Positions 15,128 through 26,017 of a stretch of 33,834 bases of DNA are shown here, piece after piece. The notes beneath the pieces were generated by a model. The model was not told where the DNA came from. It saw only the letters and a list, made by a program, of their open reading frames with translations, and searched no databases. The position numbers and the translations under genes are program-made. How positions within the stretch are numbered: the first letter of the stretch is position 1; the number at the start of each line of letters is the position of its first letter. The DNA comes from a virus, in the IMG/VR virus record IMGVR_UViG_3300005613_000235, positions 1-33,834 of that record; one strand, 5' to 3'.

Positions 15128-15162
15128 AAGAATAATTTATAGATTATGGGATGATTTGTCAA
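15128..15162 (-). promoter_or_regulatory. Promoter of minus-strand gene 14909-15127 with ATCCCAT word
   Basis: Read on the minus strand: TTGACA (15162-15157), 15-nt spacer with ATCCCAT (15152-15146), TATAAA (15141-15136), then 8 nt to the ATG at 15127. Both hexamers are close to the sigma-70 consensus. Confidence 0.6.
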
Positions 15163-15386
15163 CCTCTAGATTCACCTGATGGTATACATTGATATTCCAA
15201 TGTTTTAATCTCTAAGTTATTGATTTTAGCTTGTTTTTTAAGAAATAAAGAATGCCTAATCATCATGTCTTCACACTCTTCAAGGCTTACGGATTTCGGG
15301 TGCCAGAAATCTTTACAGAAAACTTGATTATTGTCGTAAGGGGAGCTTACACATAGACTTCCAAATAAAATAAATAATTTAAGCAT
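15159..15386 (-). CDS. Small secreted/periplasmic Cys-containing protein
   Basis: A 75-aa protein with a short signal-peptide-like N-terminus (MLKLFILFGSLCVSS) and a polar mature part with three Cys (CKDFW, ECEDM, YQCIP) that could form disulfides. The Cys in the signal region lacks a proper lipobox (Leu at -1), so a lipoprotein is doubtful. No SD; a TTGTCA-N15-GATAAG promoter ends 7 nt from the ATG. Exported phage proteins of this size may affect the cell envelope or superinfection; that is speculation. Confidence 0.62.
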   Translation of the reverse strand: MLKLFILFGSLCVSSPYDNNQVFCKDFWHPKSVSLEECEDMMIRHSLFLKKQAKINNLEIKTLEYQCIPSGESRG

Positions 15387-15393
15387 ACCTGAA

Positions 15394-15441
15394 CTTATCT
15401 TTTAAATAATCATTTGACAATAACATTTGAATCACTATTAT
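15394..15441. promoter_or_regulatory. Divergent promoters sharing the -35 region
   Basis: Plus: TTGACA (15414-15419), 16-nt spacer, TATTAT (15436-15441), then 8 nt to ATG 15450. Minus: TTGTCA (15420-15415), 15-nt spacer, GATAAG (15399-15394), then 7 nt to the ATG at 15386. The two -35 boxes overlap, so RNA polymerase could occupy only one at a time. A TGGGATAT word follows at 15444-15451. Confidence 0.55.
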
Positions 15442-15449
15442 CGTGGGAT

Positions 15450-15719
15450 ATGAAAAAAATGGTAGATCCAGCATTGCAAGTTTCTAGCGATGTAACAATA
15501 GGTGGTTCATATGAAGATGCTAAATCTTTAGATGAGTTTCACATAGAAACGTTCACAGTTCAATTTGATAAGAGAGAAAAATCTTTAAAATTGTTTCATA
15601 ACTCACACGAAAAATTTAATATTTTTTCTGAAACTTTTATGAACTTGGAAGATAATTTTATCTCTATCGGCAATTTAATCACGGAGGAATTTAAAAAATG
15701 GCTGAAACAAAAAAACTAG
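15450..15719 (+). CDS. Small hypothetical protein, probably leaderless
   Basis: 89 aa from the ATG at 15450. The frame is open upstream to a TTG at 15414, but that TTG is the -35 box of its promoter, so the longer start is rejected. No SD is present and the start codon lies 8 nt past the -10. The protein has a beta-rich N-terminus (VDPALQVSSDVTIGG) and a region FHIETFTVQFDKREKSLKLFH, suggesting a small beta domain. Overlaps the next gene by 22 bp. Function unknown. Confidence 0.65.
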   Translation: MKKMVDPALQVSSDVTIGGSYEDAKSLDEFHIETFTVQFDKREKSLKLFHNSHEKFNIFSETFMNLEDNFISIGNLITEEFKKWLKQKN

Positions 15720-16006
15720 TAATAACTTTAGAAGACTCTCCCGAAATGATTAAGTTTTGGGATCATGAAATCATGCAGTTCATGAATTGGAAACATGAAT
15801 TGTTAGAGGAGTATGTCAAAATGTTTCCTGAAGTTAAGGAGAATTATTTTAAACGTAAAAAGATCACCGAGTCAAGATACGCTGCATCCACGTACAAGCC
15901 TTGTACGATACGGGTTACGCAACAAGAATGGCTTGATGAACTTGAAAGGAGAGCAAAATGGGAAGAACACGATCCCGAGTTAAATCCAAAAATAGATCGA
16001 ATTTAG
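15698..16006 (+). CDS. Hypothetical protein (102 aa)
   Basis: Strong SD GGAGG (15682-15686) about 11 nt before ATG, inside the previous gene. Starts MAETKKLVITLEDSPEM and continues as a helical, aromatic-rich segment (IMQFMNWKHELLEEYVKMF) with a C-terminal IRVTQQEWLDELERRAKW. No family recognised. It is part of a chain of overlapping genes from 15450 to 16382 that is likely one transcript. Confidence 0.72.
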   Translation: MAETKKLVITLEDSPEMIKFWDHEIMQFMNWKHELLEEYVKMFPEVKENYFKRKKITESRYAASTYKPCTIRVTQQEWLDELERRAKWEEHDPELNPKIDRI

Positions 16007-16149
16007 TTTTGGATGGGTATTATTATAATGGATATAAGGACATAACTTATATGCTTTATAAAAACAGAGAAGGTGATTCAATCATGGAAATAAAAGAAGG
16101 TCGTTATCCAATTATAAAACACAAAGGAGAAAATAAGTCATGGATATAA
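15958..16149 (+). CDS. Small basic hypothetical protein (63 aa)
   Basis: ATG preceded by AAGGAG with 6-nt spacing, within the end of the previous gene. Basic N-terminus (GRTRSRVKSKNRSN) and a Tyr-rich middle (GYYYNGYKDITYMLY). Ends 10 bp into the next gene. The good SD argues that it is translated; function unknown. Confidence 0.6.
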   Translation: MGRTRSRVKSKNRSNLVLDGYYYNGYKDITYMLYKNREGDSIMEIKEGRYPIIKHKGENKSWI

Positions 16150-16382
16150 GTAAATGGAAATCAGTCGCAATACGTCATGATACCTGGAAAGTGATTCGCG
16201 CTTTAGGGATTAAAGACGAGCGGAAACCAGTAGAAGTCGTAGCTTTATTGGTCCGTAAAGACATTGAAAGAAGAGCAGATCTAAAGGGAATGTCCCCTGA
16301 AAAATACATTGAAAGGCTCTTTTCACAAGTCGAAAAGCATAAATCGTTCAATAAAACCGTAAACGGAAAACAAAAAAAATAG
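16140..16382 (+). CDS. Ribbon-helix-helix-like small protein (candidate DNA-binding regulator)
   Basis: 80 aa. The N-terminal pattern WKSVAIRHDTWKVIRAL followed by KPVEVVALLVRKDIERRA fits a beta-strand plus two helices, the layout of Arc/MetJ (RHH) repressors: alternating polar residues in the strand, a turn, then a second amphipathic helix. The C-terminus is basic (KSFNKTVNGKQKK). SD AAGGAG lies about 10 nt upstream. If it is an RHH protein, it is the best regulator candidate in the window for the repeated ATGGGAT word. The fold assignment is by pattern only. Confidence 0.6.
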   Translation: MDISKWKSVAIRHDTWKVIRALGIKDERKPVEVVALLVRKDIERRADLKGMSPEKYIERLFSQVEKHKSFNKTVNGKQKK

Positions 16383-16461
16383 TTGCATATGTTACCAATT
16401 TCAACTAAATATAAACCAAAGCGCAATCGCGCGGTCACACACCAGCACGTATACTGAGCAC

Positions 16462-16542
16462 ATGGATCACGACATACATTTATGGCAATATGTGTTTGCT
16501 TTTAGTGTTGTCTTAATTTGGTTTATATTTAGGAAATGGTAA
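16462..16542 (+). CDS. 26-aa single-helix membrane miniprotein
   Basis: Encodes MDHDIHLWQYVFAFSVVLIW (first 20 residues) followed by FIFRKW. Residues 8-23 are one hydrophobic helix with a basic end, oriented by the acidic N-terminus. A TATACT box (16450-16455) lies 6 nt before the ATG, with no SD and no good -35. Stop overlaps the next ATG by 7 bp. Too short to be sure it is expressed. Confidence 0.4.
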   Translation: MDHDIHLWQYVFAFSVVLIWFIFRKW

Positions 16543-16760
16543 CGATAGATAAAGAATTAGAAGATGCATTAAAATTAATTGCATCTAAAACAAATTTTGA
16601 AGAATACAACAGTATTAAAACTGTTATGTTTGGTCTATACGCAGGCTGTACTTATGGTTTCCCAGAGTACGGCATGGAATTTTTACATTACCTAGATCGT
16701 AAATATCAAGAGTCACGTAAAGAACTTGCGGAGCAAAGAGGTTTACGTGTCGTAAAGTAA
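16536..16760 (+). CDS. Small hypothetical protein (74 aa)
   Basis: Begins MVTIDKELEDALKLIASKT, then a mixed segment with FGLYAGCTYGFPEYGMEF and a charged C-terminal helix (RKYQESRKELAEQRG). Its ATG overlaps the miniprotein stop, so translation is probably coupled; the AGGA at 16531 is too close for a normal SD. The gap 16383-16461 upstream holds no other gene that I can support. Function unknown. Confidence 0.65.
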   Translation: MVTIDKELEDALKLIASKTNFEEYNSIKTVMFGLYAGCTYGFPEYGMEFLHYLDRKYQESRKELAEQRGLRVVK

Positions 16761-16768
16761 ATTATAAT
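16742..16768 (+). promoter_or_regulatory. Promoter for structured leader and gene 16836
   Basis: TTTACG (16742-16747), 15-nt spacer and a perfect TATAAT (16763-16768), inside the end of the preceding gene. The predicted start is near 16775, at the base of the hairpin described next. Confidence 0.5.
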
Positions 16769-16771
16769 TAC

Positions 16772-16823
16772 AGGTGGTCGGACTTTCCACATTGAACTAC
16801 CATTCAACCTTTACCGGCCACCT
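16772..16823 (+). ncRNA. 5' leader hairpin before gene 16836
   Basis: AGGTGGTCGG (16772-16781) pairs with CCGGCCACCT (16814-16823): ten pairs with one U-G wobble, closing a 32-nt loop. It occupies almost the whole intergenic space and ends 12 nt before the start codon, just upstream of the SD (GGAG). No long U-run follows, so a translation-control or protein-binding leader is more likely than a terminator. Confidence 0.5.
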
Positions 16824-16835
16824 CTAATTGGAGCT

Positions 16836-17168
16836 ATGGATTTTGAATTAAGAAATGAATTTGAAGATAGAGAATTTAGTCCTGAAATAAAATTATGGAG
16901 GGCTGTTTTGCATAAAGCCTTTGAAGATGTTTTTTATAGCGGATTAGAACGTCCGTTAATCATGCATAAAGATAAAGCGTTTGAGTGGTTTGCAGAAGCA
17001 GATTCTGATTTTGAAGCCGTATGTTATTACGCGCAGTTTGATCCAGGTTACGTACAAAGCACCTTTCATCGAATGATTGACGAAGAACGTATTTATTTTA
17101 GTCAAGGACAAACCGATTATATTTACTGGCGAAAGAATTATTATGATAAAAGATTCAAGCAGTCGTAG
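16836..17168 (+). CDS. Hypothetical phage protein (110 aa)
   Basis: A soluble alpha-helical protein. It contains SPEIKLWRAVLHKAFEDVF and a motif AFEWFAEADSDFEAVCYYA followed by FDPGYVQSTF, a pattern I associate with a widespread small phage protein of unknown function. Reached through the hairpin leader, with GGAG close to the ATG. Its last 26 bp overlap the HNH gene. Starts a likely operon running through the HNH nuclease, methyltransferase and oxygenase genes. Confidence 0.75.
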   Translation: MDFELRNEFEDREFSPEIKLWRAVLHKAFEDVFYSGLERPLIMHKDKAFEWFAEADSDFEAVCYYAQFDPGYVQSTFHRMIDEERIYFSQGQTDYIYWRKNYYDKRFKQS

Positions 17169-17610
17169 ATATTATTACAGACACAAGGATAAGATTTTAG
17201 CTAAAAGACGAAAACGGAGGGCGGAGAACCCAGATCTTTATAAAGAAATAGATCTTAGAAGATTTAGAACTGAGACTCATTGGATTAAAGATATTTATGT
17301 TCGAGCAAAAATTAGAGCTCGGTTATACAAAGTTACTTTTAATTTAACATTCGATCAGATTTTAAAGAGCTGGGAAAAGCATAAAAAGAAATATGGAAAG
17401 CGATGCGCTTATACGAAAAAACCTTTAACCTTTATTCGGGGGACGGGTAAGGTGACTTGGAGTAATATTTCATTAGATCGATTAAGTCCTAACAAAGGTT
17501 ATGTTTTAAAAAATATTGTGTTTTGCACCTCAGAGTTTAATCGCAAAAAAAATGATCTTTCAATAAAAGATTGCAAAGCGATCCTAAGAGTCTATAAAGA
17601 CACCCAATGA
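17143..17610 (+). CDS. HNH-type endonuclease-like protein
   Basis: 155 aa from the ATG at 17143, preferred over the longer open frame from 17077 that lies inside the preceding gene; the N-terminus is a very basic helix (RRYYYRHKDKILAKRRKRR). Further on a Cys (KRCAYTKKPL) is followed by ISLDRLSPNKGYVLKNIVF and an Asn-rich helix (SEFNRKKNDLS). The S-x-DR...GY...N...C pattern is that of phage HNH nucleases related to HNH_5-like forms; the first His is replaced by Asp-Arg, as often seen. It could be a homing-type enzyme, a packaging-associated nicking nuclease, or a restriction enzyme: its TGA overlaps the methyltransferase ATG (ATGA), so the pair is tightly coupled. Confidence 0.75.
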   Translation: MIKDSSSRRYYYRHKDKILAKRRKRRAENPDLYKEIDLRRFRTETHWIKDIYVRAKIRARLYKVTFNLTFDQILKSWEKHKKKYGKRCAYTKKPLTFIRGTGKVTWSNISLDRLSPNKGYVLKNIVFCTSEFNRKKNDLSIKDCKAILRVYKDTQ

Positions 17611-18698
17611 ACCATTTGGATTTATTTAGTGGGATTGGAGGATTTTCAATAGGGTTAGAAAAAGCAGGTTTTACAACAAAAGCGTTTTGTGAAATGGATC
17701 CTTTTTGTAAATTAGTTTTAAAAACTCACTGGAAAGATGTTAAAATATATGACAATATCAAAGAACTTACAGGAGAACAAATTGAAAAAGAAATTGGACC
17801 CATCGATATCATCACAGGAGGATTCCCCTGCCAGCCTTTTTCCGTTGCAGGACAAAAACGAGGCACCGATGACGACCGCTATCTCTGGCCAGAAATGTTT
17901 CGAGTCATTAGAGAAGTCAAACCCCAATTCGTTATTGGCGAAAATGTCAAAGGCCTTATTAACCTCCAAGACGGCATGGTCTTCGAAACTGTGTGCACTG
18001 ACTTGGAAAGTGAAGGATACGAAGTCCGGGCGTTTAATATACCAGCTGCAGGCGTCGGCGCCCCGCACAGACGTGAACGTCTCTGGATTGTGGCTCACTC
18101 CGAACACTATGGACAGCCTGCCTCCAAGAAGCGTCGAGGCGCTCCAGAAACAGTATCAAAACAACAGGAAGGGAAGAACCACTCATTCAACACTGAGAGA
18201 ACAAGTGGTTTATCCACCTCCACAACAAATGTGGCCGACTCCGAGAGCATCAGGCCAAGAGAACCCGGAGAGCTTAATCAAACGCAAAGGAATCCGTCAA
18301 GCAATGCAGCACAATCTAACCGCAGCGGTTCAGATGTGGCCAACACCGAATGCGAGAGATTGGAAAGATTCAGTAAACAAAGTTCCTCCATCGGTGAACA
18401 AGACAAGAGGTTATTCTTTGGGGATGAAGGTAGCGGAAGTTCGGCAACAAGAGCAAAAAATGTTTCCGACTCCAACAGCAAGGGATCACAAAGATTCAGG
18501 ACCCAACACGAATTACGAAAAAGCCAAAGCGAAGAGCAGGTTAGCTGGCCACGCAGGTGGGAGTTTGAACCCAATGTGGGTCGAGTGGCTCATGGGGTAT
18601 CCGGCAGGTCACACCGACTTAGAGGATTGGGAAATGCTATCGTTCCGCAAATCGCGGAAGAAATCGGAAAAGCAATCTTAAAAGCTTGTTATGATTAA
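17607..18698 (+). CDS. dcm: DNA (cytosine-5-)-methyltransferase
   Basis: 363 aa. Motif I DLFSGIGGFSIGL (5-17), motif IV GGFPCQPFSVAG (71-82, catalytic Cys75), motif VI GENVKGL (111-117), motif VIII APHRRERLWIVA (152-163), and motifs IX/X ending GLGNAIVPQIAEEIGKAI at the C-terminus. It transfers a methyl group from AdoMet to C5 of cytosine. The target-recognition region (about residues 165-310) is low-complexity with repeated VADSxSxR-like units (IVAHSEHYG, NVADSESIR, DVANTECER, NVSDSNSKG). Base composition of this part is clearly richer in GC than the flanks. It overlaps the HNH gene by 4 bp and the oxygenase gene by 8 bp. A long +1 frame inside it is described separately. Confidence 0.95.
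   Translation: MNHLDLFSGIGGFSIGLEKAGFTTKAFCEMDPFCKLVLKTHWKDVKIYDNIKELTGEQIEKEIGPIDIITGGFPCQPFSVAGQKRGTDDDRYLWPEMFRVIREVKPQFVIGENVKGLINLQDGMVFETVCTDLESEGYEVRAFNIPAAGVGAPHRRERLWIVAHSEHYGQPASKKRRGAPETVSKQQEGKNHSFNTERTSGLSTSTTNVADSESIRPREPGELNQTQRNPSSNAAQSNRSGSDVANTECERLERFSKQSSSIGEQDKRLFFGDEGSGSSATRAKNVSDSNSKGSQRFRTQHELRKSQSEEQVSWPRRWEFEPNVGRVAHGVSGRSHRLRGLGNAIVPQIAEEIGKAILKACYD
17737..18681 (+). CDS. Overprinted +1-frame ORF inside the methyltransferase (314 codons)
   Basis: A second frame stays open for 945 nt within dcm. Its translation is not random-looking: four units of the type W/F-x-T-P-x-x-x-D occur (LWLTPNTMD, MWPTPRASG, MWPTPNARDWKDS, MFPTPTARDHKDS), and it ends with GSLNPMWVEWLMGYPAGHTDLED. 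From memory, WPTPxARDxKD and LNPxWVEWLMGFPxGWTDL are hallmarks of database proteins annotated near or as cytosine methyltransferases. They arise here from the same bases that encode VADSxSxR and EPNVGRVAHGV in the dcm frame. The ORF lacks a convincing SD and stops 9 nt before the oxygenase ATG. Either both frames are used or the family in databases is a shadow of dcm; see findings. Confidence 0.4.
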   Translation: MLKYMTISKNLQENKLKKKLDPSISSQEDSPASLFPLQDKNEAPMTTAISGQKCFESLEKSNPNSLLAKMSKALLTSKTAWSSKLCALTWKVKDTKSGRLIYQLQASAPRTDVNVSGLWLTPNTMDSLPPRSVEALQKQYQNNRKGRTTHSTLREQVVYPPPQQMWPTPRASGQENPESLIKRKGIRQAMQHNLTAAVQMWPTPNARDWKDSVNKVPPSVNKTRGYSLGMKVAEVRQQEQKMFPTPTARDHKDSGPNTNYEKAKAKSRLAGHAGGSLNPMWVEWLMGYPAGHTDLEDWEMLSFRKSRKKSEKQS

Positions 18699-19191
18699 TC
18701 CTTATTTTTTAAAAACAGGAATTCAATCTAAATTAAAAAATGAACTTCTTGTCAAAGCCGAACACTTTGATCAATGGATCGATTATTTTAATTTTAAACT
18801 TATGCCTGTGGCTTCTGAAATGATTCAAAAAGATTCTTTTCTCAGAGAGTTAAACCAAATACACCCTTTTCACTGCGGAGTAATTTTATTACCTCCAATG
18901 ACTTACTATGACTGGCATGTGGACGATCAAAGAGGCGTTTGTGTGAATGCTTTGCTGAATAGTCATGGCAGAAGTTTTTGTTGTTTTTCAGGAGAAAGTA
19001 TTAAAGTTAGTGGTGCTTTTACTGAATTAAATTATGATGTCGGTGAATATGTGATATTTAATAACCAAATGAGACACTGTGTTTTTAATTTTGATAAAGA
19101 ACGTTATATGTTTACGATAGAGTTTTATGAGAATAAAGAATTGTTAAATTACGAAATGTTGTTAAAAACGTTTTATGAGAAAATTAAATAA
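18691..19191 (+). CDS. 2OG-Fe(II) oxygenase-like protein
   Basis: 166 aa. Iron-binding triad candidates are His76 and Asp78 in YYDWHVDDQRG and His129 in NNQMRHCVFNF, with Arg138 (KERYMFTIEF) positioned to hold 2-oxoglutarate. The HxD...H...R order and spacing fit double-stranded beta-helix oxygenases related to aspartyl/asparaginyl hydroxylases. Substrate unknown: protein, or a modified base given the C5-methyltransferase directly upstream (8-bp overlap). It does not show the TET/JBP signature that I would expect for a known 5mC oxidase. Confidence 0.62.
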   Translation: MINPYFLKTGIQSKLKNELLVKAEHFDQWIDYFNFKLMPVASEMIQKDSFLRELNQIHPFHCGVILLPPMTYYDWHVDDQRGVCVNALLNSHGRSFCCFSGESIKVSGAFTELNYDVGEYVIFNNQMRHCVFNFDKERYMFTIEFYENKELLNYEMLLKTFYEKIK

Positions 19192-19476
19192 ATGGCTGAT
19201 TTAAATAAATTTTTAGAACAATATTATTTTCTAGCTACAAGACTAGATGAAATTAGTGCGTACCCCTTGGATGAAGAAAAGATTTATGATCCTAAAGATA
19301 AACGTAATCAAGCTTGGCATGACGCAAATAACAAACTTTTAAAATTGATCGAAAGCTTTAAACCTGATAAAAGTGCAGAACAACTGGCTATGCATGAATC
19401 TTTAAAAAGATTGAAGAAAAGAATTAAAACGTTATTAAAATCTTATGAAAAAGGAAAACAAAAACACGTCCATTAG
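19192..19476 (+). CDS. Small helical hypothetical protein (94 aa)
   Basis: ATG abuts the previous stop (TAAATG). Acidic helical N-terminus (LNKFLEQYYFLATRLDEI) and a basic C-terminal helix (KRLKKRIKTLLKSYEKGKQK). Likely co-translated with the oxygenase. No family recognised. Confidence 0.68.
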   Translation: MADLNKFLEQYYFLATRLDEISAYPLDEEKIYDPKDKRNQAWHDANNKLLKLIESFKPDKSAEQLAMHESLKRLKKRIKTLLKSYEKGKQKHVH

Positions 19477-19543
19477 CGCTAATGATTTTAAATTATTAGC
19501 AGGAGATACTAAAGAAGGAACTAAGTTTCCAGGAGAACCTGCG

Positions 19544-20344
19544 ATGCGTATCTTATCTTTAGGTGCAGGCGTTCAATCTTCAACGATGGCTTTGATGGCA
19601 GAGGCTGGAGAATTTGGAGTTAAACCTGATGCAGCTATCTTTGCGGATACGGGTTGGGAACCTCCACAAGTTTACGAACATTTAGAATGGTTAAAGACGA
19701 AATTATCTTATCCTGTTTATACGATTCAATACGGAAATATTAGAGAGGATATTGTAAACGCGATGTCGGAGAACGGGAACCGTTTTGCTTCCGCGCCGTT
19801 TTATACTAAAAATCCTGATACCGGGAAGAAAGGAATGCTGCGACGCCAGTGTACGAGAGAATATAAAATTACACCGATTATTAAAAAGACTCGAGAGCTC
19901 ATGGGTGTTGGATTTAGAAAACGTTTTCCAAAAGATAAATGGGTGGAGATGTGGATCGGTATTTCCACGGACGAAATTATGCGTATGAAACCCGCAAGGA
20001 TTTGGTGGCAATGTAATCGTTGGCCTTTGATTGAAAAGAAAATGTCAAGGGATGATTGTTTACAATGGTACGATGGACGCGATTTACGAAGACCCGCAAA
20101 GTCGGCATGTATTGGCTGCCCTTTTCATGATGACGCGTTTTGGGCAGATATGAAAAGAAATCGACCGGATGAATTTAAAGATGCTTGTGAGATTGATGAA
20201 CAAATTCGAAAAGGTAATCACAAGGTTAAGGATAATTTGTATATTCACCGTTCTTGTGTTCCTTTAAAAGAAGTTGTTTTTAAAGAAAAAGAAAAAGAAC
20301 CTGATTTATTTAATTTAGAATGCGAGGGTATGTGCGGTCTTTAG
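19544..20344 (+). CDS. PAPS-reductase/DndC-like PP-loop protein
   Basis: 266 aa from the ATG at 19544, chosen because AGGAG (19531-19535) lies 8 nt upstream and the family typically opens with the PP-loop; an in-frame ATG at 19445 would add 33 residues that overlap the previous gene. The N-terminus is MRILSLGAGVQSSTMAL, a PP-loop variant for ATP binding, followed by FADTGWEP. Cys motifs RRQCTREYK, ACIGCPFHDD and a terminal ECEGMCGL could hold an iron-sulfur cluster. Relatives include PAPS reductases and DndC; in phages the substrate is usually unknown. Context beside methyltransferase and oxygenase genes raises DNA or nucleotide modification, but that is inference. Confidence 0.82.
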   Translation: MRILSLGAGVQSSTMALMAEAGEFGVKPDAAIFADTGWEPPQVYEHLEWLKTKLSYPVYTIQYGNIREDIVNAMSENGNRFASAPFYTKNPDTGKKGMLRRQCTREYKITPIIKKTRELMGVGFRKRFPKDKWVEMWIGISTDEIMRMKPARIWWQCNRWPLIEKKMSRDDCLQWYDGRDLRRPAKSACIGCPFHDDAFWADMKRNRPDEFKDACEIDEQIRKGNHKVKDNLYIHRSCVPLKEVVFKEKEKEPDLFNLECEGMCGL

Positions 20345-20535
20345 CCGAATCCATTATTGATGTTGGCAGCGGTTTTTTACTGGCAATTTTCATTCAATTA
20401 GTTTTCTTTCCTGTTTTTGATCTTCACCCTACGATTTTTGAAAGTATGCAAATTGCTATGATTTTTACCGTTATTTCAATTCTTCGTTCTTGGTTTTGGA
20501 GAAGTATTTTTAAAAAATATTTTGATGATTTTTAA
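20320..20535 (+). CDS. Small two-helix membrane protein
   Basis: 71 aa with two hydrophobic helices (VGSGFLLAIFIQLVFFPVF and MQIAMIFTVISILRSWFW) and a basic, aromatic C-terminus. The pattern SLAE...G...A...Q....FP.F.L...........IFTVIS..RS matches a family of short phage membrane proteins found in many genomes, function unknown (I think the DUF7220 type, not certain). Starts in the PAPS-reductase-like gene (25-bp overlap). Confidence 0.78.
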   Translation: MRGYVRSLAESIIDVGSGFLLAIFIQLVFFPVFDLHPTIFESMQIAMIFTVISILRSWFWRSIFKKYFDDF

Positions 20536-20536
20536 C

Positions 20537-20568: not shown

Positions 20569-20598
20569 TACACGTGTTCCTAACAATCAAGAAAGGTA

Positions 20599-20694
20599 AT
20601 GAAAAACGTGATCCTTTTATCTAGCATAAATAACTGTTTTTGCAAACTTAATTTATTTTTAAGCCTGGTTCCTCCCACCGTATTTCTGTACTAG
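20599..20694 (+). CDS. Possible 31-aa mini-ORF
   Basis: ATG preceded by AAAGG (3 nt spacing). Encodes a short hydrophobic peptide beginning MKNVILLSSINNCF and ending PPTVFLY. Its only support is the SD and hydrophobic nature; the stretch may instead be an untranslated leader of the next gene. Confidence 0.2.
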   Translation: MKNVILLSSINNCFCKLNLFLSLVPPTVFLY

Positions 20695-20721
20695 GTTACC
20701 CGCTCAACCAAAGGAGGAGCT

Positions 20722-20922
20722 ATGTCTGTCAATATTGAAGAGATCGTTAAGAAAATCATCACCGATATGATTGAAAACGAGGAAATTAAAATTAACACGG
20801 ATGACGGAGGCCAGTTATTCTTAGAAGTTGGGAATGATTATGGCTACGATGACGATGAAATAGAGGAAAACGAGGACGAGGACGAGGACGAGGAAGACGA
20901 AGAAGGGTCGGAGGAGGACTAG
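20722..20922 (+). CDS. Small protein with polyacidic tail (66 aa)
   Basis: Strong SD (AAAGGAGGAG, 20710-20719) before the ATG. The first 36 residues are a helical domain (NIEEIVKKIITDMIENEEIK) and a strand-like stretch. From residue 39 on, nearly every residue is Asp or Glu, ending EEGSEED, encoded by a GAGGAC microsatellite-like run. Very acidic phage proteins can mimic DNA (as Ocr does) or bind basic proteins; there is no direct evidence for either here. Monocistronic by spacing. Confidence 0.72.
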   Translation: MSVNIEEIVKKIITDMIENEEIKINTDDGGQLFLEVGNDYGYDDDEIEENEDEDEDEEDEEGSEED

Positions 20923-20939
20923 TCACGGAGGGATTTTAC

Positions 20940-20992
20940 GAGGCCTAGAAAGTTTGATAGTTAGGATATAACGAAACGAAGATCTAGGCCTC
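20940..20992. repeat. Perfect 10-bp inverted repeat with 33-nt loop
   Basis: GAGGCCTAGA (20940-20949) and TCTAGGCCTC (20983-20992) are perfect complements. The arms are GC-rich in an AT-rich gap downstream of the acidic-tail gene. The loop is purine-rich and there is no U-run. It may be a processing/terminator stem or a protein-binding site. The gap 20923-21375 otherwise holds only the miniprotein and repeats listed below. Confidence 0.5.
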
Positions 20993-21053
20993 ATATTTAC
21001 ACTAAACACTATTAACTTACCAAAATAAAATATACTTTCAAGAAAAAAATTAG

Positions 21054-21080
21054 TTGACTTCGCTATAATCCCATGTAAAT
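21054..21080 (+). promoter_or_regulatory. Promoter with ATCCCATG word before miniprotein 21088
   Basis: TTGACT (21054-21059), 15-nt spacer holding ATCCCAT at 21068-21074, weak -10 GTAAAT (21075-21080), then 7 nt to ATG 21088. Same geometry as the promoters at 15128-15162 and 26501-26527. Confidence 0.45.
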
Positions 21081-21087
21081 AGGCTAT

Positions 21088-21192
21088 ATGATTTTATTTA
21101 TTTTAATCGGTTTGGGTGCGCTGATGATTCTGCCTGCTCTGATCAAATTGTGGCAAAGTTTGGCATATTTTCTAGTCTACGTTGCATTTTAG
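21088..21192 (+). CDS. 34-aa hydrophobic membrane miniprotein
   Basis: Starts MILFILIGLGALMILPALIK and continues LWQSLAYFLVYVAF. Almost entirely hydrophobic, with one Lys, it would form one or two membrane helices. It is preceded by a promoter whose predicted start is at the ATG, and only a weak AGG serves as SD. The position before the terminase gene and its nature suggest a small holin-like or signalling peptide; unproven. Confidence 0.45.
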   Translation: MILFILIGLGALMILPALIKLWQSLAYFLVYVAF

Positions 21193-21197
21193 GTGTG

Positions 21198-21220
21198 AGT
21201 AGGCTGAATTTCAGCCTACT
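21198..21220. terminator. Perfect 23-bp palindrome (hairpin) after miniprotein
   Basis: AGTAGGCTGAA (21198-21208) and TTCAGCCTACT (21210-21220) flank a single T: in RNA, a stem of about 9-10 pairs with a small loop. It lies 6 nt past the miniprotein stop. Only a short T run follows, so termination would be weak; it may also be an operator. Confidence 0.5.
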
Positions 21221-21294
21221 TTCAGGGTACTAGGCTGAAAGAATTTCCCGCATTATATATAGTATATTTAACTATATTCTGGTTTCAGGGTACT
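21200..21294 (+). repeat. Short direct repeats upstream of the terminase small subunit
   Basis: TTTCAGGGTACT occurs at 21220-21231 and 21283-21294, and TAGGCTGAA at 21200-21208 and 21231-21239. ATATAGT/ACTATAT (21257-21263 and 21271-21277) form an inverted repeat between them. The cluster sits 80-170 nt before terS and looks like a regulatory or packaging (pac/cos-type) recognition region. Confidence 0.45.
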
Positions 21295-21375
21295 TTTAGG
21301 GTTTTTACCAGTTAGTATATAAAAAAAGTATAGAATACTCTATAGGAAAACTGAAATTTGTGATAGGAATTGGTC

Positions 21376-21864
21376 ATGAAGAAACTCCATTTAGCTAGGC
21401 AAAAGTTGACACCAAGGCAGCAGAGCTTCGCTGAGATTTATGTAGCAGGTTACCCGGATATCACCAAGACGGAGGCTGCGGAGAAGGCAGGATTTAGCAA
21501 AAAGATTGCTTCTAAGATAGGATCGCAATTAACTAACGCTGACTTATACCCTAGAGTTGTATCTTACATGGAAACTTTACGGGACCAGAAATCTTCTTCG
21601 TATAGAGATTATTTGAGACATTTAAAAAGATTAGATACATTAGCTCAAAAGGCGGAGGCAAAAGGACAATACGCAGCTGCTGTAAACGCTGAATTTAGAC
21701 TTGGACAAGCCGCAGGTTTTTATATAGACAAAAAGGAAATCAAAGTTGAAGATTTAACCGTAATGTCAAAAGATGAATTAATTAAAAAAATAGAAGACCT
21801 GCAAAATGAAATACCGACCGAAAAAACAATCGACATCACAGCGGACGAAGAAACCAATAAGTGA
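21376..21864 (+). CDS. terS: Terminase small subunit
   Basis: 162 aa. N-terminal KLTPRQQSFAEIYVAGYPDI (part of the Terminase_2-type pattern), then TKTEAAEKAGFSKKIASKIG, a helix-turn-helix with the usual AA..AG.S, and a helical oligomerisation part. It recognises the packaging site and regulates the large subunit. ATG 21376 is preferred over the TTG at 21370 because AGGA (21365-21368) is 7 nt from it. It is separated from the large subunit by 4.7 kb of small genes, which is unusual; they are normally adjacent. Confidence 0.88.
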   Translation: MKKLHLARQKLTPRQQSFAEIYVAGYPDITKTEAAEKAGFSKKIASKIGSQLTNADLYPRVVSYMETLRDQKSSSYRDYLRHLKRLDTLAQKAEAKGQYAAAVNAEFRLGQAAGFYIDKKEIKVEDLTVMSKDELIKKIEDLQNEIPTEKTIDITADEETNK

Positions 21865-21958
21865 TGAAAAGTTTTGGGATCTATTTCACCGGGTCCATAA
21901 CAAACACTTAAACACATCCGTGGGAGCGGTAACTGTAAATGTTAAAAAGAAAGATTAA
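21806..21958 (+). CDS. Small basic overlapping protein (50 aa)
   Basis: Lies in the +1 frame over the terS 3' end (59-bp overlap) and runs through the otherwise empty gap into the HExxH gene (20-bp overlap). Translation opens MKYRPKKQSTSQRTKKP and continues ISDEKFWDLFHRVHNKHLN, ending VTVNVKKKD. The segment outside terS (FWDLFHRVHNKHLN...) is protein-like. SD is weak. Placed as probable because it fills the gap with overlaps typical of this genome. Confidence 0.5.
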   Translation: MKYRPKKQSTSQRTKKPISDEKFWDLFHRVHNKHLNTSVGAVTVNVKKKD

Positions 21959-22361
21959 AGTCGGATATGATGATCTGGAAATTAAAAAAATAGAATTTCA
22001 TCCGTCAAAAGATAATGATAGTTTCGGCGAATTTAAAAGCGCTGCCTCGACCATTGAGATCGCAAAAGGTATGCATCCGAGACAAGAGGCTAATACCTTT
22101 TTACATGAAATTTTACACGCTTGTGTCTATCAATCAGGGTTAAATGCTGAAGGTGGAGCCTTGTATAAGAGCGAGGATGAAGAAGTGACTATCAATGCTT
22201 TGGCTAATTCTTTCAGTCAAGTTGTGCGTGACAATAATTGGTTTTTACCCTATCTACAAAATGGACTAACTGGAGCTAAAAATGGCATTGAAGAAAAACG
22301 AGTCAAAGCTATGGCAAAGACTAAAAAACAATATAAAAAACGGGCATTTCGTAAGAATTGA
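21939..22361 (+). CDS. HExxH putative zinc metallopeptidase-like protein
   Basis: 140 aa. Zinc motif HEILH (His56, Glu57, His60) in ANTFLHEILHACVYQSGL, preceded by IEIAKGMHPRQ; a third ligand could be an acidic residue in the SEDEEVTINALAN stretch. Small single-domain gluzincin-like proteins with HEilHa are frequent in phages, and targets are unknown. The C-terminus is basic. The last 80 bp overlap the nuclease gene. No SD is obvious. Confidence 0.75.
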   Translation: MLKRKIKVGYDDLEIKKIEFHPSKDNDSFGEFKSAASTIEIAKGMHPRQEANTFLHEILHACVYQSGLNAEGGALYKSEDEEVTINALANSFSQVVRDNNWFLPYLQNGLTGAKNGIEEKRVKAMAKTKKQYKKRAFRKN

Positions 22362-22662
22362 AAGTCATACCATACAAGGTATTCCTGATATAAATTATTG
22401 CATAAATGGAGTTGAAGGTTGGATTGAATTAAAGGTAAACTCCAGTAAAATAAGTCCTCTATCTAAGTGGCAAAAATCATGGATTTATACGAGAGTTAAA
22501 AACGGCGGCAAAGTATTTATTATCACTTTCACCCCCTCGGAGAGAGCCTTAAAACTTTTCAAACCGAGACCCTCCACCCGTGACCCGCTATCCGATCCAC
22601 CGGTACACAACTTCCAGGAGCCGATCAATTGGTCACTGGTCGCGGAATTCCTGAAAAAATAA
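22282..22662 (+). CDS. VRR-NUC/PD-(D/E)XK endonuclease-like protein
   Basis: 126 aa. Motifs in order: RIESH, GIPDINY (Asp36), GWIELKV (Glu49, Lys51), then SKWQKSWIYTRVKNGGKVFIITF, matching VRR-NUC-type Holliday-junction or structure-specific nucleases. Catalytic Asp, Glu and Lys all appear present. SD GGAGC 5 nt before ATG. It lies between the terminase small subunit and the cargo array and may resolve branched DNA before packaging. Overlaps the HExxH gene by 80 bp. Confidence 0.8.
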   Translation: MALKKNESKLWQRLKNNIKNGHFVRIESHTIQGIPDINYCINGVEGWIELKVNSSKISPLSKWQKSWIYTRVKNGGKVFIITFTPSERALKLFKPRPSTRDPLSDPPVHNFQEPINWSLVAEFLKK

Positions 22663-22675
22663 TTAAATTTTTTTA

Positions 22676-22709
22676 TTGACACCATATCCCACGGTGATAA
22701 AAGGATAAT
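22676..22709 (+). promoter_or_regulatory. Promoter with ATCCCA word ahead of the cargo array
   Basis: TTGACA (22676-22681), then ATATCCCA (22684-22691) and an AT-rich -10 zone (GATAAAAGGATAAT at 22696-22709; best spacing 14-15 for GATAAA/ATAAAA). It follows directly on the nuclease gene and is in front of a 115-120 nt leader. Confidence 0.5.
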
Positions 22710-22710
22710 C

Positions 22711-22773
22711 GGTAGTTCATTTCAAAACAATTAGCTCCTGTTTCGATTAACTACCACGGGTCGACGGTCGACC
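22711..22773 (+). ncRNA. Structured leader with GGTCGAC palindrome
   Basis: GGTAGTT (22711-22717) pairs with AACTACC (22749-22755), then a perfect 15-bp palindrome GGTCGACGGTCGACC (22759-22773), which is also a direct repeat of GGTCGAC. GC-rich in an AT-rich region. It ends about 50 nt before the 22824 gene and may be a terminator-like stem, a regulatory leader or a protein-binding site. Confidence 0.45.
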
Positions 22774-22823
22774 ACTGACCATGGGAGGCCGTTGACGCTG
22801 GAAACATAACTAATGGAGGATCT

Positions 22824-23012
22824 ATGAAAGAAACAAAATACAGCTTTTATTACCGGTCATGGGATGGACACATCATGAGACCGGAAAGCTTTTTAAACAT
22901 TAACAAGGGTCGTACCTTATCCGGATCGCAATTGCGCGTCCTGGGTATCACTAAAATAAGAAAGAAGGATTTATGCTCATATTTGGAAAACCGATCGACA
23001 ATAGAAAAATAA
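22824..23012 (+). CDS. Small hypothetical cargo protein (62 aa)
   Basis: SD GGAGG in the leader ATGGAGGATCTATG. Sequence begins MKETKYSFYYRSWDGHIMR and is basic and polar, with SQLRVLGITKIRKKDLCSYL. No family recognised. First of the cargo-array genes. Confidence 0.65.
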   Translation: MKETKYSFYYRSWDGHIMRPESFLNINKGRTLSGSQLRVLGITKIRKKDLCSYLENRSTIEK

Positions 23013-23089
23013 AAAAATTTATTGACCAGTATAAGTTAAAAATTTTATTTATCATTTTATTGATTTTAAGCTTGACGGTCTCATTTTAA
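22973..23089 (+). CDS. 38-aa membrane miniprotein
   Basis: ATG with AGAAGGA 4 nt upstream, overlapping the previous gene by 40 bp. Basic N-terminal part (KPIDNRKIKKFIDQYK) and a C-terminal hydrophobic helix (ILFIILLILSLTVSF). Topology is inferred: a tail-anchored peptide. The promoter for the next gene overlaps its 3' end. Confidence 0.5.
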   Translation: MLIFGKPIDNRKIKKFIDQYKLKILFIILLILSLTVSF

Positions 23090-23098
23090 TGGGATAAT
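23072..23098 (+). promoter_or_regulatory. Promoter of the Gp88-like gene
   Basis: TTGACG (23072-23077), 15-nt spacer, GATAAT (23093-23098). ATGGGATA spans 23089-23096, overlapping the -10, so a factor bound there would block polymerase. The leader then runs to SD GGAGG and the ATG at 23126. Confidence 0.6.
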
Positions 23099-23125
23099 AG
23101 ACTATAAACTAAAAATGGAGGATCT

Positions 23126-23800
23126 ATGTTACTACAAGTCAATACTAATTGGAAAACAATTAAATCTATGAAATACGGATTCATGACCGGTATCCTATAC
23201 CTGGCCCCGTATAAATTATCTGGTAAAAATGTTTGCCCGGCCGCTTCGCTAGGCTGCCGCCTGAGCTGCTTGAATACGGCAGGACGGGGACAGATGGGCG
23301 TGGTCCAGAAGGCTAGGCTTCGAAAAACAAAAATGTTTTTTCAGGATCGTAATAAATTTTTATCCCAGTTAAAAACTGAAATAGAAATATTAAATAGAAG
23401 GGCAGCTAATAAGAATATGAAATTAGCTATCCGGTTGAACGGGACCAGCGACCTACCCTTCGAGAGATATTTAATCGAGGGTAAAAATTTAATGGACCAC
23501 TTTCCTGGAGTTAAGTTTTATGATTATACGAAACTCGAAAACCGGGTCACGGGGTCATTACCGGCTAATTATCATTTAACGTTTTCGCGATCCGAGACTA
23601 ATGACAACGTTGTCTACAAAGTCATTAAGAAGGCGCCCGTGTCCGTGGTCTTTAAAAATAAATTACCTAAAAAATTTAAAGGCTATAAAGTTATTAATGG
23701 TGATTTACATGACATGAGATTTAAAAACAAATCCGGGGTCATTGTGGGTCTACTTGCTAAGGGCAAGGCCAAAAAAGATAATACTGGTTTCGCAGTTTAA
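23126..23800 (+). CDS. Gp88-like phage protein with Cys-rich N-terminus
   Basis: 224 aa. Cys37, Cys44 and Cys48 in VCPAASLGCRLSCLNTAGRG, followed by QKARLRKTKMFF and IRLNGTSDLPFE, and a downstream FYDYTK, are the pattern of a phage family I know as gene product 88. Three or more Cys suggest a metal or iron-sulfur site; biochemical function is not known to me. Own promoter, SD GGAGG 4 nt from ATG. A hairpin terminator follows. Confidence 0.8.
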   Translation: MLLQVNTNWKTIKSMKYGFMTGILYLAPYKLSGKNVCPAASLGCRLSCLNTAGRGQMGVVQKARLRKTKMFFQDRNKFLSQLKTEIEILNRRAANKNMKLAIRLNGTSDLPFERYLIEGKNLMDHFPGVKFYDYTKLENRVTGSLPANYHLTFSRSETNDNVVYKVIKKAPVSVVFKNKLPKKFKGYKVINGDLHDMRFKNKSGVIVGLLAKGKAKKDNTGFAV

Positions 23801-23828
23801 GAAATTCGTGACCTCCATTACGAATAAC

Positions 23829-23856
23829 CTACTCAGGGATAGATATCCCTGAGTAG
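23829..23856. terminator. Bidirectional hairpin terminator between convergent genes
   Basis: CTACTCAGGGA (23829-23839) pairs perfectly with TCCCTGAGTAG (23846-23856), 6-nt loop that can extend the stem by two pairs. It lies between the plus gene ending 23800 and the minus gene ending 23865. The T run is poor on either strand. Confidence 0.6.
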
Positions 23857-23864
23857 AGTTAAAA

Positions 23865-24104
23865 TTAATCCCTCCAGACTCCGATGGTGCCAATACCTTC
23901 AATATTGGTTAAAAGGGCTCCCGCCTCGTTGGCCTCATCATCCGCGCTAGGGGTCAAAATGATCCCGTTGCTTAAATGAATCTCACAAGGTTGATAATCC
24001 CATCCAAAATATTTTTCAGATTTTTTAGGACTTAGATATTCAACTTTAGTTATTCGTTGCCCAACTAAAGCTTTTTTCAATTTATTTATAAATTGATCCT
24101 GCAT
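23865..24104 (-). CDS. Small hypothetical cargo protein (79 aa)
   Basis: The longest frame starts at 24116, but that ATG belongs to the ATGGAGGAAAACATG leader, so 24104 is used. Sequence contains ALVGQRITKVEYLSPKKSE, then IHLSNGIILTPSADDEANEAG. The DDExNxAGAL signature fits a widespread small bacterial and phage family of unknown function. Promoter shared divergently with gene 24183. Confidence 0.78.
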   Translation of the reverse strand: MQDQFINKLKKALVGQRITKVEYLSPKKSEKYFGWDYQPCEIHLSNGIILTPSADDEANEAGALLTNIEGIGTIGVWRD

Positions 24105-24127
24105 GTTTTCCTCCATTATTTTTTAAT

Positions 24128-24160
24128 TTGACTTTAATATAGTCATGGGATATAAGTCAA
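24128..24160. promoter_or_regulatory. Divergent promoter pair, copy 1, with central CATGGGATA
   Basis: Plus: TTGACT (24128-24133), 15-nt spacer, GATATA (24149-24154). Minus: TTGACT (24160-24155) with TATATT or TATTAA as -10 on the complement near 24134-24141 (spacing 13-15). The -35s form the arms TTGACTT/AAGTCAA of an inverted repeat. CATGGGATA lies at 24144-24152. The sequence is nearly duplicated at 24920-24955. Confidence 0.6.
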
Positions 24161-24182
24161 GTAAATAAAAATGGAGGATAAA

Positions 24183-24527
24183 ATGGGATACACTAATCAT
24201 TGGTATCATAAAAAACCATTCACGGATGTCGAATGGGCTATAATCAAAAAAGAATATAAGTACGTTGTAGAGAATTTTAATAATGTACTTATTAAAGATC
24301 AAACCGAGGATCAAAACGAAATACGTTTTGACGGTATTGGTCAGAATAGTCATGAAACATTTATTTTAAAAAAAGTAAATAATACGGAACCTATGTACGA
24401 GGGGGACGACGTGACCTATAATTTTTGTAAAACAAATCGTAAACCTTATGATATCGTCGTTAGGCATATATTAAGATATGCCAATCATATTAATGACGAT
24501 AAACTATCACTTAGATTCGAGGATTAA
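24183..24527 (+). CDS. Phage hypothetical protein with HETF...FCKT...KPYD signature (114 aa)
   Basis: Start corrected to 24183: the upstream in-frame ATG at 24171 lies in the SD leader. Opens MGYTNHWYHKKPFTD and contains RFDGIGQNSHETFIL and YNFCKTNRKPYDIVVRHIL. This set of motifs is shared by a phage family of unknown function that I have seen in many genomes. Followed at once by a good rho-independent terminator, so the gene is monocistronic. Confidence 0.8.
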   Translation: MGYTNHWYHKKPFTDVEWAIIKKEYKYVVENFNNVLIKDQTEDQNEIRFDGIGQNSHETFILKKVNNTEPMYEGDDVTYNFCKTNRKPYDIVVRHILRYANHINDDKLSLRFED

Positions 24528-24540
24528 AAAATAAAAAAAA

Positions 24541-24567
24541 GGCGGGATAAAACCCGCCTTTTTGTTT
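24541..24567. terminator. Rho-independent bidirectional terminator
   Basis: GGCGGG (24541-24546), loop ATAAAA, CCCGCC (24553-24558), then TTTTTGTTTT. An A8 run precedes it, so it also works for the convergent minus-strand gene ending at 24581. This is the best terminator in the window. Confidence 0.9.
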
Positions 24568-24580
24568 TCTGGTGTTTTTT

Positions 24581-24895
24581 TTAATTTGTAATATAGGCGC
24601 CATCAAGTATTGCGTCTAAACTCAATTTAGATTTAACCTTGACCGAGTGACCCACATCGAACCACTCGCCCCCACGTTTAACTAATTTAATTTGATAAGA
24701 ATAGATTGAACCCATCTCATCAAACATGCCCAATTGGGAGCCTTTAGCATCTATCAAAATAGTGCTTTTAAGACCTTTACCCTGCTTAGGTGATTCCATT
24801 AGAACCCCTTCACAAAGTGCACCTAATTGATTTGATTGTATAATATCACCCTTCCTTAGTTCACTAAAGTTGATGATTGTTTTTTCTGTACTCAT
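24581..24895 (-). CDS. Small hypothetical cargo protein (104 aa)
   Basis: Start corrected to 24895 (the ATG at 24907 belongs to the ATGGAGGAAACAATG leader). Contains INFSELRKGDIIQS, GVLMESPKQGKG, and GMFDEMGSIYSYQIKLVKRGGEW, a beta-rich pattern. No function known. Own divergent promoter with gene 24976, terminator shared with 24183. Confidence 0.75.
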   Translation of the reverse strand: MSTEKTIINFSELRKGDIIQSNQLGALCEGVLMESPKQGKGLKSTILIDAKGSQLGMFDEMGSIYSYQIKLVKRGGEWFDVGHSVKVKSKLSLDAILDGAYITN

Positions 24896-24919
24896 TGTTT
24901 CCTCCATTGTTTTTTTTAT

Positions 24920-24955
24920 TTGACTTTAATATACTCATGGGATAACTTAAGTCAA
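24920..24955. promoter_or_regulatory. Divergent promoter pair, copy 2, near-duplicate of copy 1
   Basis: Plus: TTGACT (24920-24925), 15-nt spacer, GATAAC (24941-24946). Minus: TTGACT (24955-24950), 16-nt spacer, TATATT (complement of 24928-24933). CATGGGATA at 24936-24944. It matches copy 1 base for base over most of the plus-strand part (TTTGACTTTAATATA then TCATGGGATA) and shares the SD leaders on both sides. Confidence 0.65.
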
Positions 24956-24975
24956 ATAAAAAAATGGAGGATAAA

Positions 24976-25353
24976 ATGAAAAAACCGTTCATTACAGTTA
25001 AGACTAAAATCAAAGTACAGCTTATTTTTAGTTTTGATAATCATGAACAACAAATGTGGGAATGCGAATTTAAAGCATTACCTATTGATTGGAATGAAAG
25101 TGATTTAATTAGAAATCTAATTGAAAACGCTTTCCCTAATGACATTGAAAACACAAAAGACTTAGTTAAGATTTCAATGTGTATTAATGGAGATAAGGCC
25201 TCAACAAAAGTACCTTGCATTAAACAGATGTTAAAAAGAAATGGTAAGTACTTTTTTCAACCCGACCAACGTGACCACGTTGAGAATGCAATTATAAAAG
25301 ATTCGGTTATTGCAAGTCTTACAAAACCATTCTCAGAATTAAAAGTCAGCTAA
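24976..25353 (+). CDS. Hypothetical cargo protein (125 aa)
   Basis: Start corrected to 24976, downstream of the ATGGAGGATAAAATG leader. Begins MKKPFITVKTKIKVQLIF, and alternates strand and helix, ending HVENAIIKDSVIASLTKPFS. Soluble; no family recognised. A GC-rich terminator-like hairpin follows. Confidence 0.75.
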   Translation: MKKPFITVKTKIKVQLIFSFDNHEQQMWECEFKALPIDWNESDLIRNLIENAFPNDIENTKDLVKISMCINGDKASTKVPCIKQMLKRNGKYFFQPDQRDHVENAIIKDSVIASLTKPFSELKVS

Positions 25354-25384
25354 GCATCACAAGGTCCGGTTAACGCCGGGCTGC

Positions 25385-25421
25385 GCCCCCGGTCACCGCC
25401 GGGGGCTCATGCAATTTTTTT
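25385..25421 (+). terminator. GC-rich hairpin terminator
   Basis: GCCCCCGG (25385-25392), loop TCACCG, CCGGGGGC (25399-25406), then after a short linker a T7 run (25415-25421). GC content stands out from the AT-rich flanks. The T run also lies in the loop of a second small stem (GCAAT/ATTGC, 25411-25426). Confidence 0.75.
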
Positions 25422-25473
25422 ATTGCAATTAAAATAAATTAATTTAAAAATAAAAATAACAATGGAGGTTAAA

Positions 25474-25632
25474 ATGAAAGTATGTAGTATCTGTCAAAAG
25501 ACGGAGCAAGAGCAAGGCACAAATTTTGATTGTGAGGTGTGGAAACCTAATCAAAAATATCTAATACTATTATGTGATGATTGTTTCTTTAATGAAAGAG
25601 ATAAGTTATCTAAAACTAACAATGGAGGTTAA
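25474..25632 (+). CDS. Small zinc-ribbon cargo protein (52 aa)
   Basis: ATG in the AATGGAGGTTAAAATG leader. Opens MKVCSICQKTEQEQGTNFDC and continues EVWKPNQKYLILLCDDCFFN. CSIC (4-7) and CDDC (34-37) give a classic two-knuckle zinc ribbon. Its last codons and stop lie in the SD leader of the next gene, so the two are coupled. Weak AT-rich promoter-like sequence precedes it (TTGCAA at 25423-25428). Function unknown. Confidence 0.7.
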   Translation: MKVCSICQKTEQEQGTNFDCEVWKPNQKYLILLCDDCFFNERDKLSKTNNGG

Positions 25633-25633
25633 A

Positions 25634-25903
25634 ATGAAAAAAATATACCTAGGCTCAACGGGTGTAGATAGCGGTCAACTTTTTATCAGTGACCCATGTT
25701 ACATTAAAATGGATAAACCGAACGACACTATTACATATGATGATATGTGTGTTAGTGTAGATAGGCCGAGCAAACAACTTATTAATAAGTTCGGAGCTGA
25801 GGTCGGAGTAGTCGTTCCGACAACTATCGGTGACGGTGTTTATCCTGTATATGGCCAATATAATTCTAAAGGCCAATTAAAGAAATTAGTTATAGAAATA
25901 TAA
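25634..25903 (+). CDS. DUF4241-like small protein (89 aa)
   Basis: Start corrected to 25634; the longer frame from 25574 runs back over the zinc-ribbon gene. Sequence contains GVDSGQLFISDPCYIKMD, VVVPTTIGDGVYPVYGQYN and LKKLVIEI. The SDPCY and GDGxYPVYG motifs fit a family of unknown function related to DUF4241. Followed by a perfect 12-bp hairpin terminator. Confidence 0.78.
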   Translation: MKKIYLGSTGVDSGQLFISDPCYIKMDKPNDTITYDDMCVSVDRPSKQLINKFGAEVGVVVPTTIGDGVYPVYGQYNSKGQLKKLVIEI

Positions 25904-25917
25904 ACCAGTGAATAATA

Positions 25918-25947
25918 CTGAAACCCTAATTGAGTTTAGGGTTTCAG
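25918..25947 (+). terminator. 12-bp perfect hairpin terminator
   Basis: CTGAAACCCTAA (25918-25929), loop TTGAGT, TTAGGGTTTCAG (25936-25947), then TTCTGTTCT. It lies 15 nt after the stop of the DUF4241-like gene. Confidence 0.8.
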
Positions 25948-25989
25948 TTCTGTTCTGGTAAGGATCGCAATCTTTTATTTATTTTTTAC

Positions 25990-26017
25990 TTGCATCCATA
26001 TCCCATTAATATATTAT
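25990..26017 (+). promoter_or_regulatory. Promoter with ATCCCAT word before gene 26058
   Basis: TTGCAT (25990-25995), 16-nt spacer, TATTAT (26012-26017). TATCCCAT lies in the spacer at 25999-26006. The leader continues to the third copy of the ATGGAGGTTAAAATG sequence. Confidence 0.6.

Follow-up and report, generated by a model that had tools for sequence, protein, structure and literature searches.

The stretch of viral DNA considered here, IMG/VR record IMGVR_UViG_3300005613_000235 (33,834 bases; 'the window' below), is, judged by its sequence, a sizeable part of the genome of an HTVC023P-type pelagiphage, that is, of a SAR11 virus, since its terminase large subunit shares 67% identity with that of Pelagibacter phage HTVC023P and 60% with that of HTVC027P. 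The host given in the records of both phages is Candidatus Pelagibacter sp. HTCC1062; the HTVC023P genome is 60,878 bp long. Two features of the window are at issue. The first is a short word, ATGGGAT on one strand and ATCCCAT on the other, that recurs at promoters; the second is a forward-strand gene at 16140-16382, proposed as the gene of its regulator, whose 80-residue product (N-terminus MDISKWKSVAIR) looks like a ribbon-helix-helix (RHH) protein of the Arc/CopG type. In the order polymerase, RHH gene, terminase, the window matches HTVC023P. Upstream on the forward strand, and in the same run as the RHH gene, the list of open reading frames (ORFs) and their translations gives 15450-15719, 15698-16006 and 15958-16149; a copy of the word at 15443 heads the run, and this layout recurs in the loci of homologues.

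The initial annotation listed eight positions of the core, TGGGAT/ATCCCA, as noncoding or close to start codons and as lying in or beside core promoters. The core is present at all eight; every site is intergenic or abuts a start codon, and a -35 of the TTGAC or TTGCAT type lies near each. Most sites fall in the spacer between -35 and -10 or touch the -10. An exception heads the regulator's own operon: GTGGGATA at 15443-15450 (forward strand) begins 1 bp past the -10 TATTAT (15436-15441) of a promoter with TTGACA at 15414-15419, overlapping the expected transcription start and the ATG at 15450. It is kept in three related contigs (L004, L006, L008), and in these, as in the window, the word (here 15443-15452) runs into the ATG of the operon's first gene, suggesting that the message from that ATG is leaderless.

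The other seven sites are as follows. ATGGGAT at 15146-15152 (forward) occupies the spacer of a leftward promoter, TTGACA 15162-15157 and TAAATT 15139-15134, which precedes the leftward genes at 14722-15127. Two copies on the reverse strand occupy the spacers of rightward promoters: ATCCCAT at 21068-21074, behind TTGACT 21054-21059 and before a 34-residue ORF at 21088-21192 (orthologous sites in L004, L006, L008 and L011), and TATCCCA at 22685-22691, behind TTGACA 22676-22681 and before a conserved untranslated stretch (orthologous sites in L004, L006 and L028). ATGGGATA at 23089-23096 (forward) stands 17 bp from the start of TTGACG 23072-23077 and precedes the GP88 gene, 23126-23800. A divergent promoter pair, TTGACTT...AAGTCAA, at 24128-24160, carries CATGGGATA at 24144-24152 between a leftward gene (23865-24104) and a rightward gene (24183-24527); a second, near-identical pair at 24920-24955 carries CATGGGATA at 24936-24944, between a leftward gene at 24581-24895 and a rightward one at 24976-25353. 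The two cassettes (24120-24165 and 24915-24960, 800 bp apart) look like a duplication; the small genes flanking them are of unknown function. The last copy, on the reverse strand (TATCCCAT as read on the forward strand, 25999-26006), lies shortly past TTGCAT 25990-25995 and precedes the gene at 26058-26378, with similar sites in L006, L010 and L011.

Counted over the window, TGGGAT/ATCCCA occurs 21 times, 12 times in genes and 9 times in the 3,321 bp of noncoding DNA defined by a hand-made gene list. The nine are the eight listed sites and a copy at 21875 that is not promoter-like; dinucleotide shuffles average 1.6, and none of 1,000 reaches 9. ATGGGAT itself is found 6 times in noncoding DNA as against 0.48 expected, again with no equal in 1,000 shuffles. 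(An automatic gene caller yields 10 noncoding copies; the extra one, at 17630, actually lies within a methyltransferase gene.) The excess over composition on which the initial annotation staked its proposal thus stands for the word taken singly, at 9 against 1.6, but becomes borderline once all words are corrected for: ribosome-binding-site words outrank TGGGAT, with a value of about 0.1 after correction for all 6- or 7-mers. Since those words rank higher and a great many words have to be corrected for, the excess in the window by itself is no more than suggestive. On that evidence, with its borderline value once all 6-mers are considered, chance occurrence in AT-rich intergenic DNA was an open explanation; it is excluded by the relatives, and the probability left to it is negligible, because the relatives keep the word and because of the unsupervised and reverse tests described below.

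Related contigs were reached through homologues of the GP88 protein (PF17338); noncoding counts in them use a simple gene caller of our own and are approximate. Conservation in relatives was the other point on which the proposal had been made to depend, and the word is kept at orthologous promoters in L004, L006, L008, L011, L028 and HTVC023P. From L004 to L011, ATGGGATA is found at the corresponding promoters despite changed surrounding DNA. At the GP88 promoter the word touches the -10 in the window and L004 and lies just behind the -10 in L005-L011 (as GTGGGATA in L011); operator variants upstream of GP88 are found also in L004-L011, HTVC023P, HTVC027P and 023Pt_psg01. HTVC023P has four noncoding copies of ATGGGATA, all four with a -35-like hexamer.

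In 91 loci that carry the RHH gene or are closely related, 227 noncoding sites reduce to 98 after near-identical contexts are merged. A -35-like hexamer lies within 34 bp of 51 of these 98, as against 26 of 186 distinct coding copies, and at 47 of the 51 the word is downstream of the -35, on either strand and at distances that vary from directly behind the -35 to about +1. Downstream and variable placement of this sort is what one would expect where a bound repressor obstructs polymerase. The same variation bears on two other explanations. In several promoters ATGGGATA adjoins the -10 position or overlaps it, and the word might on that ground be taken for a promoter element in its own right, namely a -10 variant (TGGGATAAT, for example) specific to one sigma factor. 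A fixed element of this kind was rejected, as position and strand vary (position independence is largely seen) and the word tracks the RHH gene, and the idea is left very improbable. A rather better, still unlikely, alternative is that the RHH protein does bind the word and activates, or switches in both directions, recruiting host RNA polymerase to middle promoters. At 7 of the 51 distinct sites the first base of TTGAC stands 18 bp before the T of TGGGAT, and by eye the promoters with this fixed spacing have poor -10 hexamers; the remaining sites, however, lie elsewhere between -35 and about +1 on either strand, and some overlap the transcription start, which suits blocking better.

The full operator may often include a second, weaker half-site, a feature beyond the initial annotation. 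An inverted partner ATRRGATA at 12 bp occurs at 7 of the 51 sites, as against 0.37 expected (in shuffles, the highest count at any offset has a 99th percentile of 4); a direct partner ATRRGATA at 10 bp is likewise found at 7 of the 51. Both counts are far above shuffles, and most sites have neither partner. Full words are paired in L016, 9 bp apart, and in L035, 20 bp apart.

The case for the 16140 product as an RHH protein is built on its AlphaFold (AF2) model, structural matches and the conservation of its homologues. The monomer model (mean predicted local-distance difference test score, pLDDT, 77) has an extended N-terminus, to which no strand is assigned, followed by helices at residues 13-26 and 30-49, which agrees with the strand-helix-helix plan of RHH proteins, confined to about 45-50 residues. 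In a VIA-align comparison nearly all of the best 50 rows are RHH proteins (Reg576, CopG, PutA, Arc, AmrZ and others), from Z 5.6 down. Of the sequence searches, Pfam returns no significant match (RHH_1 at E 0.063, RHH_5 at E 0.15), PHROG gives 'Arc-like repressor' at 0.026, and a profile search of PDB sequences finds designed proteins only, none of them useful. Homologues occur at 95 viral loci, of which 80 were kept; the homologue set has 88 entries and 45 distinct sequences, HTVC023P gp13 among them. Their most conserved part is the first ten residues, MDI-KWKS-A, the region of the N-terminal strand, with M1, D2, I3, K5, W6, K7, S8 and A10 invariant in 29 homologues. A scan of a genome collection added four homologues, all in contigs of metagenome-assembled genomes, with promoter-like sites in L274 and none that is clear in the other three.

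Word and gene can be connected from either end. Unsupervised word counting, no word being specified in advance, was applied to the intergenic DNA up to 1,400 bp 5' of RHH genes in 18 clusters, with duplicate records (L020-L026, L030) excluded along with any locus that had <1,400 bp upstream. The ATGGGAT family comes first at six, seven and eight letters: ATCCCA in 14 of the 18 clusters (3.35 expected), ATCCCAT in 13 (1.31 expected) and ATGGGATA in 9 (0.42 expected). In the other direction, a scan for the full-operator pattern TTGACNATCYTATNNNNATGGGATA matched 23 viral contigs, in every case in noncoding DNA, and an equivalent scan with the pattern reversed matched none. Of these 23 records, 9 carry an RHH homologue; among the 8 with a length of at least 15 kb the figure is 7, which includes the L016 record, known beforehand. 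The exception among the eight, L298 (G037), has 45% GC and a complete operator-like sequence at 250-274, and no RHH homologue was found across its 25.8 kb.

Protein and word also change in parallel. Diverged RHH homologues occupy a similar genome position in HTVC027P (gp21) and in 023Pt_psg01 (an ORF), with probabilities of 95.9% and 92.1% by profile comparison. In the first 50 kb of each record, HTVC027P, whose protein is of the KYKSLAV type, has 8 copies of ATAGGAT, 5 of them noncoding (0.63 expected) and each of these 5 next to TTGACA, and 023Pt_psg01, of the KYKSLSV type, has 10 copies of TATGGGA, 6 of them noncoding (0.82 expected). Judged by position, the HTVC027P genes that follow ATAGGAT or ATGGGAT promoters are gp02, gp21, gp33, gp35, gp36 and gp38. 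Upstream of GP88 the operator reads AATGGGATA in the window and in HTVC023P, TATAGGATG in HTVC027P and TATGGGAAT in 023Pt_psg01. Each of the two KYKS types has 81 homologue loci, 80 and 79 of which have enough upstream DNA, leaving 14 and 21 after removal of near-identical upstream DNA; for the 21 the own-promoter test is weak, as many of them have other genes ahead of the regulator gene in its operon. Among the 14 distinct upstream regions of the HTVC027P-type family, the promoter of the regulator itself has ATAGGAT in 10 and, by eye, ATGGGAT in two (L133, L164). In HTVC027P-type loci, as in L303 and L304, the operator sits right on the promoter of the regulator, and an MNIEKYKSVAI-type protein has TATTATCCCATA over its own promoter. 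To go by these upstream sequences, the regulator would tend to control itself. A simple rule, by which W6 would go with ATGGGATA and Y6 with ATAGGAT, was rejected: the KYKSVAI-type protein goes with ATGGGATA, and a KYKSLAV-type contig also has a ATGGGATA operator (L305, L288). The word, as these comparisons have it, drifts between phages, yet no single residue is responsible.

The reading we favor, at a probability of roughly 0.7 on this sequence and model evidence, is that the phage's own autoregulating RHH repressor, the product of 16140-16382, reads an operator at host sigma-70 promoters, with ATGGGATA as the strong half-site of that operator. We infer binding, dimer arrangement, repression and timing as follows. 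RHH proteins form dimers in which the N-terminal strands pair and enter the groove of the DNA. A dimer of the 16140 protein would accordingly contact the operator with its N-terminal beta-ribbon, MDISKWKSVA, and operators of two half-sites would take pairs of dimers; bound inside the core promoter, the protein would block RNA polymerase. Its targets would be scattered promoters of the replication-to-packaging region together with its own operon, and as it builds up a set of early or middle genes would be switched down. The suggestion in the initial annotation that one regulator, with the 16140 protein as candidate, governs these promoters together gains from the co-occurrence of word family and gene in both search directions, the word at the head of the protein's own operon, the RHH model, and the parallel change of protein and word, all of which argue for it.

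Several observations weigh against this repressor. A clear second half-site is missing at most of the window sites; residues 1-6, within the presumed ribbon, are modelled below pLDDT 50; Foldseek has no match to the model at E <= 0.001, and the best VIA-align Z is 5.6; and the pairing of the KYKSVAI-type protein with ATGGGATA leaves the change of word unexplained by any one residue. Two further points favor a different reader of the same operator, either a factor of the SAR11 host or the product of some other phage gene in the neighborhood of the RHH gene. TGGGAT is missing from the examined upstream DNA in 4 of the 18 RHH clusters, and the RHH operon includes other genes. To these can be added HTVC019P (L273), a temperate pelagiphage of another group on the same host, which is without this RHH family and has, at about 625-690 between early genes, an array of ATCCCAT-, ATCCTTT- and ATCCTAT-like units at roughly 10 bp spacing. 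Because of this array the word may have an additional reader, and the host-factor explanation is retained. As the sole account it is nevertheless improbable, though the best placed of the alternatives: there is no excess of the word in HTVC010P (1 of 8 ATGGGAT copies noncoding) or HTVC011P (1 of 1, not promoter-like); the word differs between HTVC023P and HTVC027P, phages of one host strain, alongside the phage RHH protein; and the longer contigs found by operator carry the RHH gene almost without exception.

A wider proposal, to which we give somewhat less than even odds, is that HTVC023P-type pelagiphages, some of which are reported to encode no RNA polymerase, use a single fast-evolving RHH repressor to time their genes, the half-site word diverging with the protein from phage to phage. 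HTVC027P is described as lytic, using host RNA polymerase throughout and showing mosaic gene timing, with gp33 and gp34 high at 6-9 h and gp33 in a small cluster (PMC12753301); gp33 is the GP88 gene, behind an ATAGGAT promoter. Its lytic habit and its dependence on the host polymerase also count in favor of the repressor proposed above. In the available text of a second paper, PMC9599517, the word 'promoter' does not appear. If true, the proposal would explain the scattered timing reported for HTVC027P and would supply a ready-made set of proteins matched to their operators, from which the code by which beta-ribbon repressors recognize DNA could be worked out. The outcome is a named candidate regulator with operators and predicted target genes, open to existing RNA-seq.

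Some neighboring features deserve mention. The 34-residue ORF at 21088-21192 is hydrophobic (MILFILIGLGALMILPALIKLWQSLAYFLVYVAF) and begins a few bases past the predicted -10 of the 21054 promoter, so that its message, too, may be leaderless; similar 34-residue ORFs follow 21054-type promoters in L004, L006, L008 and L011. The untranslated stretch past the 22676 promoter, 22692-22800, is strongly conserved in the window, L004, L028 and L006. It can form a GGTAGTT...AACTACC stem and then a long GTCGACGGTC hairpin, with 26 predicted pairs, one of them changed on both sides; Rfam matched no family in the window, this stretch included, and it is possibly a phage small RNA or a structured leader. 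At 17607-20344 a DNA methyltransferase, a weak match to endonuclease V and a phosphoadenosine phosphosulfate reductase-like gene are clustered.

An RHH repressor of a phage is a known kind of protein; the 16140 family and its operator are new to the literature searched, as far as the texts available go. In these no paper joins pelagiphages or SAR11 phages with ribbon-helix-helix, or pelagiphages with a regulatory motif, nor were the RHH family, its operator and their spread over HTVC023P-type phages found. The best structural matches, CopG, Reg576 and omega (2cpg, 6gyg, 1irq; Z 4.9 for CopG and 5.6 for Reg576), share the RHH fold; they serve in plasmid copy or establishment control and use other operator words. 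AmrZ and PutA (3qoq, 2gpe), which share an RHH DNA-binding domain, are bacterial chromosomal regulators. Among phages, Arc and Mnt of P22 are known RHH repressors, and Arc represses its own operon. Like the 16140 protein, they are small, phage-encoded RHH proteins with short half-sites in core promoters, and the 16140 model matches Arc (1par, 1baz) at Z 4.7-4.8; the pelagiphage case differs in its lytic group, its many scattered operators per genome, its different word and the absence of any known family that its protein matches in sequence with a usable score. CtrA has been proposed as a shared regulator for phages of Alphaproteobacteria (PMC9437464); there the reader is the host's own CtrA, whereas here the link is to a protein that the phage itself encodes.

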